Source: a virus. Taken from it: a DNA stretch of 41,147 nt. Position numbers and translations under genes: made by a program. The stretch lies in IMG/VR virus record IMGVR_UViG_3300046533_000321, positions 1 through 41,147 of that record; one strand, given 5' to 3'. The notes beneath the pieces are model-generated. The model was not told the origin of the DNA and made no database searches. It worked only from the letters and a program-made list of their open reading frames with translations. Below, piece after piece: positions 29,081 through 35,614 of this stretch. How positions within the stretch are numbered: the first letter of the stretch is position 1; every line of letters begins with the position of its first letter.

Positions 29081-29854
29081 TCAGTGGTCTTGGAACTGCT
29101 TCCGGATCGTCGGGATCCCTGACACCGAGTAGTTCGAGCCGTGCTTCAACTCCTTGCCCTTGCCCCAGATGTCCTCGACGTTGACCCCGATGTGGCAGTG
29201 AGGCGTGTAGCCCGAGAACTGGCCCACCTTGCCGATCCCTGCTCCCTTACCGAGGACCTTGCCGACAGCTGGTGCCGAGACGAGGTGGCCGAACCAGTAC
29301 TTGATCCCGCTGACGCCCTTGGCGTAGCAGGCATCGCCGGGACTCGACGAGGAGTCCTTGTAGATCTCGATCTTCTCGGGCGCGGTCACCATCGTGCCGG
29401 GCGTCCAGACCGAGTCGGTGGCGGGGAACAAGGCGATCCCCGAAGTGGCGTGACTCAGCGCGAAGTCGAGCAGCGAGGCTCCGCCCTTCTCGACCGGGCC
29501 AAGGTCGGGGACCTTCTTGCCCTGATCGGAGGCGTACTCGGTCTGGACCTGATTGATGCAGGTCCCATCGAGCGCCTGCTCGCCAGCGTGGGCGAGGCCC
29601 TTCGGGATCACGGCAGCGCGGATCTTGTCGTAGCGTCCCTCGCCGTAGCCGTTCTTGCCAGGATCCCACTCGTCCAGCGCCCCCTCCAGCTTCTTGTTGA
29701 AGACGTTGTCCCACACGTCCGGCTCCCAGGGGATCTTGCCAAGCCGGGCCATCGCTCGCTTCAGCGCCAGGGCCGTGTTGCCCTTGTGCTTGCCGTCACC
29801 CTCGACCGAGTACGGCCCCGTGTAGGGGAAGTCAGCCTTCGAGATCGTCGCCAT
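29081..29854 (-). CDS. Endolysin: peptidoglycan-binding region plus M23-like peptidase, 257 aa
   Basis: Residues about 15-75 look like a peptidoglycan-binding domain (NTALALKRAMARLGKIP, ALDEWDPGKNGYG). Residues about 150-230 resemble an M23 endopeptidase: YWFGHL (H190), a turn GKVLGKGAGIGKVGQFSG, and HCHIGV (H219, H221) as zinc ligands. The first metal-binding His/Asp of M23 is not obvious, so activity is likely but not certain. It shares a TGATG junction with the preceding gene and is followed by the holin candidate. Confidence 0.75.
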   Translation of the reverse strand: MATISKADFPYTGPYSVEGDGKHKGNTALALKRAMARLGKIPWEPDVWDNVFNKKLEGALDEWDPGKNGYGEGRYDKIRAAVIPKGLAHAGEQALDGTCINQVQTEYASDQGKKVPDLGPVEKGGASLLDFALSHATSGIALFPATDSVWTPGTMVTAPEKIEIYKDSSSSPGDACYAKGVSGIKYWFGHLVSAPAVGKVLGKGAGIGKVGQFSGYTPHCHIGVNVEDIWGKGKELKHGSNYSVSGIPTIRKQFQDH

Positions 29855-30232: not shown

Positions 30233-30622
30233 TCATGTCGCAACGAACGGCTGTGCGTGGAAGTCGGCGAGCGTGAACTCGCGCAGTCGCGGTTGCCAGC
30301 GCATCGCAACCCCTCCTCGCTTCAGCTTCACCTTGCGCCAGCCCCAGAGTTCGAGCACGGTGCCTGGTGTCGAGAGCCAGTCGATGGACTCCTGCGCTCG
30401 CTCGATCAGGATCTTGCGCTCATGGGAGGCGAAGTCGGAGCCGCAGGACTGGATCCCGACGACGCCGCGCTCGGGGTCGAGGGCGATGATGTCGATGATC
30501 CCGAACAGGTCCTGGCGGATCCCGTGAGGGCCGACGAAGGCGTTGTAGCGCTCGACGATCCCGCAGACCCGGCCCTGCTGACGAAGCTCACGGATCGTGC
30601 GCTGGGTCGGTGAGGTGCTCAT
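30233..30622 (-). CDS. PD-(D/E)XK-like nuclease-fold protein, 129 aa
   Basis: The pattern GIVERYNAFVGPHGIRQDLF, GIIDIIALDPERGVVGIQSC, then WLSTPGTVLELWGWRKVKLK has the strand-D-strand-Q layout of small PD-(D/E)XK-fold proteins, with D in FGIID and Q in GIQSC replacing the usual E/K. It may be a resolvase-like or Vsr-like nuclease, or an inactive relative. Its ATG overlaps the upstream stop. Confidence 0.55.
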   Translation of the reverse strand: MSTSPTQRTIRELRQQGRVCGIVERYNAFVGPHGIRQDLFGIIDIIALDPERGVVGIQSCGSDFASHERKILIERAQESIDWLSTPGTVLELWGWRKVKLKRGGVAMRWQPRLREFTLADFHAQPFVAT

Positions 30623-30864
30623 TGCTCGGGCAGGGCTGGAGCGACATCCTCCAGCCCCCCTTCCTCCAACCAGGCGGTGAAGGAGTCGAGCAGGATCGGG
30701 ATCACGTAGTCGCCCTCTCGATGCTCGACCCAGACAAGCTCGTCGGCGGAGTACTCAAGGTGGAAGCAGTGGCGCTCGCTCGGTGAGAGCCGCATGTCGG
30801 TCGCGACCCGGACGTACTGAGCGCCGGGGTCGACGTAGACGCGGAGAGCGGTGTCTAGCTTCAT
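30619..30864 (-). CDS. Small protein of unknown function, 81 aa
   Basis: Beta-rich (YVRVATDMRLSPSERHCFHL) with an acidic C-terminus. The start is chosen at MKLDTAL, where the ATG overlaps the stop of the Acb2-like gene, rather than a longer upstream frame. Coupling to that gene hints at a shared counter-defence or accessory role, which is inference. A 9-bp inverted repeat (GGGCTGGAG arms) lies in its last codons. Confidence 0.6.
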   Translation of the reverse strand: MKLDTALRVYVDPGAQYVRVATDMRLSPSERHCFHLEYSADELVWVEHREGDYVIPILLDSFTAWLEEGGLEDVAPALPEQ

Positions 30865-31061
30865 TCGACCGCGTAGGTGAAGACGACTGCCTTCTTGGCC
30901 CACATCGATGTCTCCTCCAGCTTCGTCAGCGCCAGAGAGCGGAAGCGGGATTCGGGAAGCTGGTGGAGCATGTCGCTGACGTTCAGCATCTGCCGCGTCA
31001 CCTCGTCCAGCATCTCGGCCTGCTCTTCGTTCGGTGCTCGGTTGGTGAACAGGTCTTCCAT
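30861..31061 (-). CDS. Putative Acb2/Tad1-type cyclic-nucleotide sponge, 66 aa
   Basis: This small all-helical protein ends in the signature of the Acb2/Tad1 helical-hairpin family: LPESR (residues 35-39), then SLALTKLEE (42-50), then MWAKKAV (53-59). In that family the proteins form compact oligomers that bind cyclic oligonucleotides made by host CBASS systems, or related Thoeris signals, and so block abortive defence. Length (66 residues) is at the short end. GAGAGGA precedes the ATG. The next gene overlaps its stop. The family call is from motif memory and the ligand cannot be predicted. Confidence 0.65.
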   Translation of the reverse strand: MEDLFTNRAPNEEQAEMLDEVTRQMLNVSDMLHQLPESRFRSLALTKLEETSMWAKKAVVFTYAVE

Positions 31062-31087
31062 CTGGTCCTCTCGTCAGGGTTCACGGA

Positions 31088-31114: not shown

Positions 31115-31354
31115 TTACTTCTCTTCGGCCTTCTCGGCCTTCTTCTCCTCGGACTTCGCAGCCTTGGCTGCGGCCTCGTTCTCCTTCTCCTCCTCTTCGA
31201 GGGAAGGGCGTCCGCTGCGAGCGCGAGCGAGGTTCTCCTCGTCGTGCGCCCTCTGAGCCTCCGTCTCGCGAGCGTCCTGCACCCGCTCGACGTACGCCTC
31301 CGGATCCTCCTGCTGCTGATCGAGAAGCTCCTGCTCGGTCAGTTCCTCTGCCAT
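31115..31354 (-). CDS. Highly charged Glu/Lys-rich protein, 79 aa
   Basis: The protein is almost entirely charged helix (EEEEKENEAAAKAAKSEEKK). A near-ideal ribosome site (GGAGGTGATCAC before the ATG) implies strong translation. It could be a disordered decoy, a DNA mimic or a scaffold-like protein. No family can be recognised from such composition. Confidence 0.65.
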   Translation of the reverse strand: MAEELTEQELLDQQQEDPEAYVERVQDARETEAQRAHDEENLARARSGRPSLEEEEKENEAAAKAAKSEEKKAEKAEEK

Positions 31355-31415: not shown

Positions 31416-32492
31416 CTACGCGCAGTACACGTACACAACGCCCGAGAGCGCCGCGCCGCTGGACTGGATGATCGTCCAGGCGGTGGTGCCCGTCGGATCG
31501 CCCGTCGAGTCCGAGCGGAAGGAGGCGGTGACCGATCCCTGGATGTTGAAGCCACCAGAGACGGCATGCTTCCCTGCCGGGCAGGAGACGGTGAACTGCT
31601 TGTCTCCCGAGGCGGTTCCGCCGACAACGGTCTGGATCGAGCCGATGTCGCCCGTGTCGCCCTTCGGACCAGCCGGACCCGTGGGGCCAGCCGGGCCTGC
31701 CGGGCCAGCCGGGCCAGCTGCGCCCGTCTCACCCTTCGCTCCCGCCGGGCCAGCCGGGCCAGTGGCTCCAGTGTCGCCCTTCGGCCCAGCGGGTCCTGTC
31801 GCACCAGCGGGGCCAGCCGCGCCAGTGTCACCCTTCGGGCCTGCGGGGCCGATGGGGCCAGCGGGGCCTGTGGCTCCGACTGCTCCAGCAGCGCCCGTGT
31901 CGCCCTTCGCTCCTGCAGGGCCAGTCGCCCCGGTGTCACCCTTCGCGCCAGCAGGGCCAGCTGCTCCGGTGTCGCCCTTGGGACCAGCCGGGCCGACTGC
32001 GCCTGTCGCGCCTGTGTCGCCCTTCGCTCCCGTGGCTCCGGTTGCGCCAGTCTCGCCCTTGGCTCCGGTGTCACCCTTCGGACCCTGAGCGCCGTTCTGG
32101 CCGTTCGCGCCAGCGGCCCCAGTTGCTCCGGTAGCACCCTTCGCACCCTCGACGCCCTGAGCACCCGCAGAGCCGTTGGCCCCCTTGGCTCCTGCCGGGC
32201 CTGCTGGACCCTGAGGACCCCTCGGGCCTGTCACCGCGAGTCCCAGCTTGCGGTTCTCCCACGGCCTGCAGGGTTCGTTCTTGGCGACCGAGCGGACGAC
32301 TCCCGCCCTCAGGATCGCGAGCTTCTCGCTCGGGCTGAACGTGATGTTCGCCCCGGTCAGCGGCAGCAGGCTCTTCTTGCCAATGCAGAAAGGCCCGGCG
32401 AGTCTTCGCCCCTGATCGGTTGTTGCCGCGGTCGTCGATCCGACCATGATGACGGCACAGAGAGCCGCCAGAAACACGTACCACTTCCTCAT
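31416..32492 (-). CDS. Secreted collagen-like protein, 358 aa
   Basis: Residues 1-23 form a signal peptide ([20 protein letters not shown]). A 65-residue N-terminal domain with C36 and C75 follows ([27 protein letters not shown]). Then about 65 uninterrupted Gly-X-Y triplets run from residue 89 to about 284, many of them GPKGDT, GPAGPA and GATGPA. A 73-residue C-terminal beta domain carries two cysteines ([13 protein letters not shown]). Collagen triplets are usual in phage fibres, but a signal peptide is not. This points to an exported host-surface protein, perhaps acquired from an actinobacterium. Confidence 0.85.
31641..32228 (-). repeat. Gly-X-Y coding repeat region
   Basis: Around 65 nine-base triplet codon units encode the collagen-like domain. 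Units such as GGCCCGGC and GACACTGG recur with many variants on the coding strand. Such tracts expand and contract by slippage or recombination, so length may vary between relatives. Confidence 0.85.
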
Positions 32493-35138: not shown

Positions 35139-35375
35139 GTGGAGAGCTTTGCTCCCTCACGGAACGAACGCAGTCAGCAGGTTCGAGGCAAGGAACGGCC
35201 CTACTCTCGTAGAGAGTCGGAATGGGAGAACACCGGGGCATTCACGGGGACTGGTCGACCGAAGGTCGTCGGCGTCTCGGAGCAGGTCGCTCTCGTCACT
35301 CGGCGGAACGCTGCAGCAGCCCGAAGGGCTGAGAGGCAGTGGCTCCGGACACTCCCGAAGGGAACGAGGATCTAA
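35139..35375 (+). CDS. Small basic protein, first gene after promoter P1, 78 aa
   Basis: The GTG start is placed by the element CACACGGAGGTTC just upstream, shared with other starts in this region. The protein is basic and largely helical at the C-terminus (ALVTRRNAAAARRAERQWLR), suggesting nucleic-acid binding. No family was recognised. Hairpins at 35213 and 35317 lie in its coding region. The stop shares one base with the next ATG. Confidence 0.65.
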   Translation: MESFAPSRNERSQQVRGKERPYSRRESEWENTGAFTGTGRPKVVGVSEQVALVTRRNAAAARRAERQWLRTLPKGTRI

Positions 35376-35614
35376 TGCACGGCCTGATCCTGAGAGCGTG
35401 GCGTGACGGATCCGTCCACGCCGAGGTGCCGATTGCCGCTTTCCACACCGAAGGTGTGCTCGGCGTCCACCTCGACCATCGCGAAGACGGGCACCGCTTC
35501 AAGACCGCTTGCGGTCTTGGTTGGTTCGGCATCGGCTCCTCGTCGGGCTACGGACACCCTGAAAGGGTGTCTTGCGAGGCTTGCCGGGCAATCCTGCTCG
35601 GCGAATCACAGTAG
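35375..35614 (+). CDS. Small Cys/His protein, 79 aa
   Basis: A beta-rich N-terminus (HGLILRAWRDGSVHAEVP) leads to HRFKTACGLGWFG and HPERVSCEACRAILLG. The CG...CEAC arrangement resembles small actinophage zinc proteins (xxCG...VxCxxC). Four hairpins (8-9 bp stems at 35500, 35553 and 35602) fall within it, the last spanning the stop codon. Function unknown. Confidence 0.65.
   Translation: MHGLILRAWRDGSVHAEVPIAAFHTEGVLGVHLDHREDGHRFKTACGLGWFGIGSSSGYGHPERVSCEACRAILLGESQ

Follow-up and report, generated by a model that had tools for sequence, protein, structure and literature searches.

The question raised by this locus is whether a 66-residue viral protein captures the cyclic oligonucleotides made by CBASS-type enzymes and, if so, which of them. 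The window, by which we mean the whole stretch of 41,147 bases analyzed, is a virus record whose minus strand encodes terminase, portal, major head and tail proteins. The features considered here are the following.

30861..31061, minus strand: gene for the 66-aa protein, predicted to be an Acb2-type hairpin (PF24729, AlphaFold model, Foldseek/VIA-align, dN below dS).
31066..31072, minus strand: GAGAGGA, purine-rich and ribosome-binding-site-like, 4 nt ahead of the hairpin ATG (read from the sequence).
30619..30864, minus strand: 81-aa ORF, accessory, whose start overlaps the hairpin stop (ATGA, 30861-30864).
30233..30622, minus strand: 129-aa ORF with a PD-(D/E)XK-like predicted fold, whose start overlaps the end of the 81-aa ORF (ATGA, 30619-30622).
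29081..29854, minus strand: putative metallo-endopeptidase, context (weak match to phrog_7767, E 0.0029).
31416..32492, minus strand: fibre-like protein with collagen repeats, encoded upstream of the hairpin gene (Pfam PF01391, E 1.2e-31; tail-fibre PHROGs).

The 66-aa ORF described in the earlier note is present and carries, in the order given there, the three motifs that were quoted (LPESR at residues 35-39, SLALTKLEE at 42-50 and MWAKKAV at 53-59). The profile search proposed at that time returned Pfam PF24729 (Acb2_Tad1_hairpin), which scored 45 bits (E 1.2e-11; cut-off 27 bits). The protein also matches PHROG 1454, of function unknown (E 7e-13), and PF24729 is matched by all 44 aligned relatives (alignment A3). 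When a profile of these relatives was compared with solved structures, the nearest was 9ptq, named "Acb2 homolog 43" (E 9.1e-9), followed by Tad1 (7uav, E 0.0033) and T4 Vs.4 (7uq2, E 0.026). In hhalign, the family profile scored 89.6% against T4 Acb2 over 21 columns that cover the second long helix only. PADLOC and NCBIfam gave no match for the hairpin gene, the 81-aa gene or the 129-aa gene.

The AlphaFold2 model, computed from a 44-sequence input, places helices at residues 2-5, 12-33 and 39-62 with a mean pLDDT of 94.9, which is the helix architecture described for Acb2 in PMC12043709 and PMC10419184. Foldseek ranked T4 Vs.4 with cGAMP (7uq2) in positions 1-3, Acb2 8h2x in position 4 (weak matches, with E of at least 0.28) and Tad1 chains lower, all E-values being above 0.1. 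VIA-align gave a Z of 7.3 to 7uq2_D (rmsd 3.6, 62 aligned residues, 26% identity), where an unrelated protein reaches 6.7, and a Z of 6.6 to 8h2j_B, below that unrelated protein. With Foldseek E-values above 0.1 and VIA-align Z-scores below 8, a common helical hairpin could score likewise, so the predicted fold alone is no proof of Acb2 identity and is consistent with it once joined to the profile match. A profile match and a predicted fold with paired helices, the two points on which the earlier note had staked its proposal, were thus both found, and together they support placing the protein in the Acb2/Tad1 hairpin superfamily and, within it, among the Acb2-type members. The proposal had been worded as an "Acb2/Tad1-like" sponge; its hairpin half stands, and its Tad1/anti-Thoeris half lacks support because the all-helical 66-aa model has no counterpart of the N-terminal beta-sheet domain of Tad1. 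We therefore regard the protein as Acb2-like rather than Tad1-like and rejected membership in Tad1, a protein for which, as for Tad2, binding of gcADPR is described in PMC12043709.

Close relatives of the hairpin protein are encoded on other IMG/VR contigs, at 97% (L002/L010), 77% (L003/L011), 71% (L012), 69% (L004/L013), 66% (L090) and 61% (L091). The gene is present in a single copy in a search of the whole record, and 0 of 14 control genomes were positive. GAGAGGA just ahead of the start is also kept in L002, L003 and L004. Between the window and L010 the hairpin genes differ by 10.8 synonymous changes over 44.3 sites and by 3.2 nonsynonymous changes over 153.7 sites (Nei-Gojobori); within the window clade the gene is under purifying selection. 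Two of the relatives (L003:8001-8273 and L004:8001-8279) extend into an Ala/Ser/Gly-rich C-terminal tail of ~25 residues that is absent from the window protein. An alignment-based scan showed that the wider family comprises at least 256 confirmed loci, 80 of them listed. Searching 50,697 phage records with the protein by tblastn gave one match, in cyanophage S-2L, and no named phage was matched by a megablast that covered 21,148 of the 41,147 bases of the window. The S-2L match (MW334946.1, about 35199-35414; L008:5968-6183) is an unannotated Acb2-type hairpin ORF between two tail genes; it has the canonical Tyr and Arg and overlaps the annotated start of the tail assembly gene. Scanning genomes for possible hosts of the window clade yielded a single locus, a distant one in Lachnospiraceae.

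Which ligands would such a protein hold? According to work by Huiting (2023) and Cao (2024), K26 of Acb2 reportedly belongs to the dinucleotide site and R67 to the trinucleotide site. We take K26 of PaP2 p26, like K23 of T4, to be the basic residue of the dinucleotide pocket and equivalent to T22 of the window protein; R67 of PaP2 p26 is presumably the trinucleotide-site Arg and equivalent to R39. In a MAFFT alignment, Y8, K23 and T68 of T4 Acb2 fall on N7, T22 and T46 of the window protein. Y11, K26 and T74 of PaP2 p26 Acb2 occupy the same places as the three T4 residues, and its R67 falls on R39. The hhalign comparison of the family profile with a PaP2 p26 fragment has the expected register (window 11 with PaP2 15) at an insignificant probability of 0.7%, and because the T4 match is confined to the second long helix, the placing of Y8 and K23 rests on MAFFT and on a shared 15-residue spacing.

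With these placings the Tyr of the dinucleotide pocket is absent from the window protein, where position 7 is Asn, and so is the basic residue, position 22 being Thr; the trinucleotide-site Arg is present as R39. These apparent pocket changes had been missed by the earlier note. The spacing of seven residues between R39 and T46 recurs in PaP2 Acb2 (R67/T74) and in Tad1 (R91/T98), and an Arg and a Thr at equal spacing in Tad1 fit a site common to Acb2 and Tad1. R39 is not universal, since T4 Acb2 has D61 in its place. For T4 Acb2, PMC12657218 and PMC12657230 describe that Y8A abolishes function, that F82 stacks on the base and that T68M lowers affinity. According to PMC12043709, the two sites of Acb2 are independent, homologues vary in range, and trinucleotides sit at the trimer interface, similar to Tad1. 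With the pocket Tyr and Lys/Arg replaced by Asn and Thr, binding of cyclic dinucleotides should not be assumed. Because R39 is kept, a trinucleotide sponge is likelier than a 3'3'-cGAMP sponge, and judging from these residues the ligand is more likely to be a cyclic trinucleotide of the cA3/cAAG type.

The reading that we favor, and consider probable, is that the 66-aa protein is an Acb2-family counter-defence sponge in which dinucleotide binding has been lost or re-tuned and trinucleotide binding kept. Acb2 is a hexamer. The window protein would be produced during infection, and we infer that its helical hairpins would join into a small homo-oligomer. This oligomer would tightly bind cyclic oligonucleotides from CBASS-type enzymes, so that the CBASS effectors would stay off and the host would not abort the infection.

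The replaced residues change together among the relatives. In 78 distinct rows (83 less 5 repeats), position 7 holds Y in 63 rows, N and H in 6 each, S in 1 and a gap in 2; position 22 has R 64 times and T 6 times; and R occupies position 39 in 76 rows. The six rows with N7 are the six rows with T22. Position 8 is H in 62 rows and R in 5, the Arg having been gained by the window clade. The scan that listed the 80 loci used patterns spanning positions 43-50 and 51-59, so the conservation of T46, E49, E50 and W54 stems in part from the search itself; these patterns do not include positions 7, 22 and 39. A second set of 48 aligned homologues, hand-chosen from more than 100 loci, adds three further N7/T22 loci: T22 occurs in 9 of 9 rows with N7 and in 0 of the 39 others. 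The patterns of the second scan ([MAI]E[DH][LR]FTN[RH] and T[KN]LE[EQ][CTA]SM) include N7, which may therefore be enriched among its loci (L090, L091, L098), and T22 is in neither pattern. The nine rows form two groups, the window clade (seven rows), which carries H8R and E40F beside N7/T22, and the pair L036/L098. In this pair, N7/T22 is combined with the ordinary H8 and E40. A tree of 46 rows built without columns 7 and 22 (T4 and L071 were omitted as long branches) requires two changes to N7/T22, and a single change was seen in 0% of 200 bootstraps. As seven of the nine rows belong to one clade, the independent events number about two at most.

An exact pair that may have arisen twice, together with the purifying selection that persists in the window clade, would suit a pocket that was not lost. 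It would instead have been re-tuned, and N7/T22, joined in the window clade by H8R and E40F, would recognize a different nucleotide signal. We think this unlikely, as under the AU test N7/T22 could still have arisen once (p 0.102) and the loss of one site would also free both residues, although the same pair arising twice by drift is hardly expected. We give similarly little credence to its extension, that Asn7/Thr22 hairpins are a separate Acb2-fold class whose dinucleotide pocket was rebuilt, perhaps twice, for a signal that classical Acb2 does not bind.

Alternatively, the protein could be a broad Acb2 sponge for di- and trinucleotides, in which Asn7, Arg8 and F61/Y63 substitute for the Tyr and the Lys/Arg. 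That Y8A alone kills the function of T4 Acb2, and that here both residues we assign to the pocket are altered together, makes this quite doubtful. It would draw on the Arg8 gained by the window clade and on the aromatic F61/Y63, which lie near the place of the base-stacking F82 of T4 (PMC12657218). In the structure 9ptq, which is still named an Acb2 homolog, Thr takes the place of the Tyr and the other position retains Lys; a missing Tyr is therefore not by itself unique to the window clade.

The sponge reading that we favor, with trinucleotide binding kept, can also be weighed against the genomic context. The two short genes after the hairpin gene had been described as tightly coupled to it, and an ATGA overlap indeed occurs both times. 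They had also been described as of unknown role, which is partly right: the 81-aa product has no match in Pfam, PHROGs, PADLOC or NCBIfam, and the 129-aa product has a predicted nuclease-like fold. The latter has no Pfam or PHROGs match at E 0.1. It has invariant R8, E24, D38, G41, D44 and Q58 and a WGWRK motif, and its model is mixed alpha/beta with weak best fold matches to 3dnx, an RNA splicing endonuclease and many HincII chains. On this model, the product likely adopts a PD-(D/E)XK-like nuclease fold. The 129-aa gene directly follows the hairpin gene in L002 and L003. These contigs, from the window's own clade, are the only 2 of 28 phage loci with the 129-aa gene that have a hairpin in their flanks (up to 2 kb), and the gene is no dedicated partner of the hairpin. 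With tblastn, the 81-aa gene was not matched in L002, the nearest relative, and in L003 it has a 47% homologue on the opposite side of the hairpin; neither it nor the 129-aa gene was matched in L004. The earlier suggestion that both neighbors may serve counter-defence is thus not borne out for the nuclease-like 129-aa product. A three-gene counter-defence cassette was rejected on the same grounds, with the 81-aa gene unmatched in L002 and hairpin-free flanks at 26 of the 28 loci.

Farther out, homologues of the 29081-29854 product (57-86%) occur in L002, L003, L004, L090 and L091. Its gene lies close to that of the hairpin within the window clade, and this product probably has a lysis role. 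On the other side, the 31416-32492 protein has G-x-x collagen-like repeats and a hydrophobic, signal-like N-terminus, and 31115-31354 encodes a highly charged 79-aa protein of which the first ~52 residues alone align with relatives. Across the wider hairpin family, each PHROG was seen at most twice among the 70 flanking proteins scanned (70 of 86 ORFs at 44 loci, with most minus-strand ORFs, a very long one and a short one omitted). Such mixed flanks are more in keeping with an accessory gene than with a structural component. A lysis or tail accessory outside immunity that shares the fold by descent, as the position of the hairpin gene between collagen-like fibre and peptidase-like genes and that of the S-2L homologue between tail genes might suggest, is highly improbable given that the neighbors in the wider family are so mixed (replication, head, regulators, terminase) and that the members of the hairpin family characterized so far are sponges.

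Acb2 binds two kinds of signal at two independent sites, and a natural clade in which one of them is rewritten and the other retained offers a clean way to learn which site counts against a given defence. The hairpin protein is small, easily made and comes with a specific binding prediction. If the pocket were re-tuned, such proteins could serve as bait for bacterial immune nucleotides yet to be discovered.

Among known systems, Acb2 (T4 Vs.4, 7uq2; Pseudomonas phage p26, 8h2j/8h2x) shares with the window protein a short N-terminal helix, two long antiparallel helices, a TKLxEASMWA-like second long helix and its coding by a small stand-alone phage gene, with T46 of the window protein equivalent to T68 of T4 and R39 to R67 of p26. 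The window protein is shorter (66 aa, versus 88 in T4 Acb2 and 94 in the PaMx-phage Acb2), its inter-helix loop is far shorter, and it has N7/T22 where Acb2 has Y8/K23 (T4) or Y11/K26 (p26). Tad1 (7uav, 8kbf) has the same SRxxxxALTxxEExxMW helix motif, but unlike the hairpin-only window protein it also carries a beta-sheet domain at its N-terminus, and PMC12043709 describes it as binding gcADPR. The "Acb2 homolog 43" of 9ptq resembles the window protein in that it is without the Tyr (T5) and retains the Arg (R38) and TKLEE, and differs in having a Lys (K20) at the place of position 22. The PHROG 1454-type FxYHxP hairpins, such as the S-2L ORF, are similar to the window protein in length and helix pattern and share R39, T46, EE and W54 with it, but are mostly Tyr7/Arg22, whereas the window clade is Asn7/Thr22.
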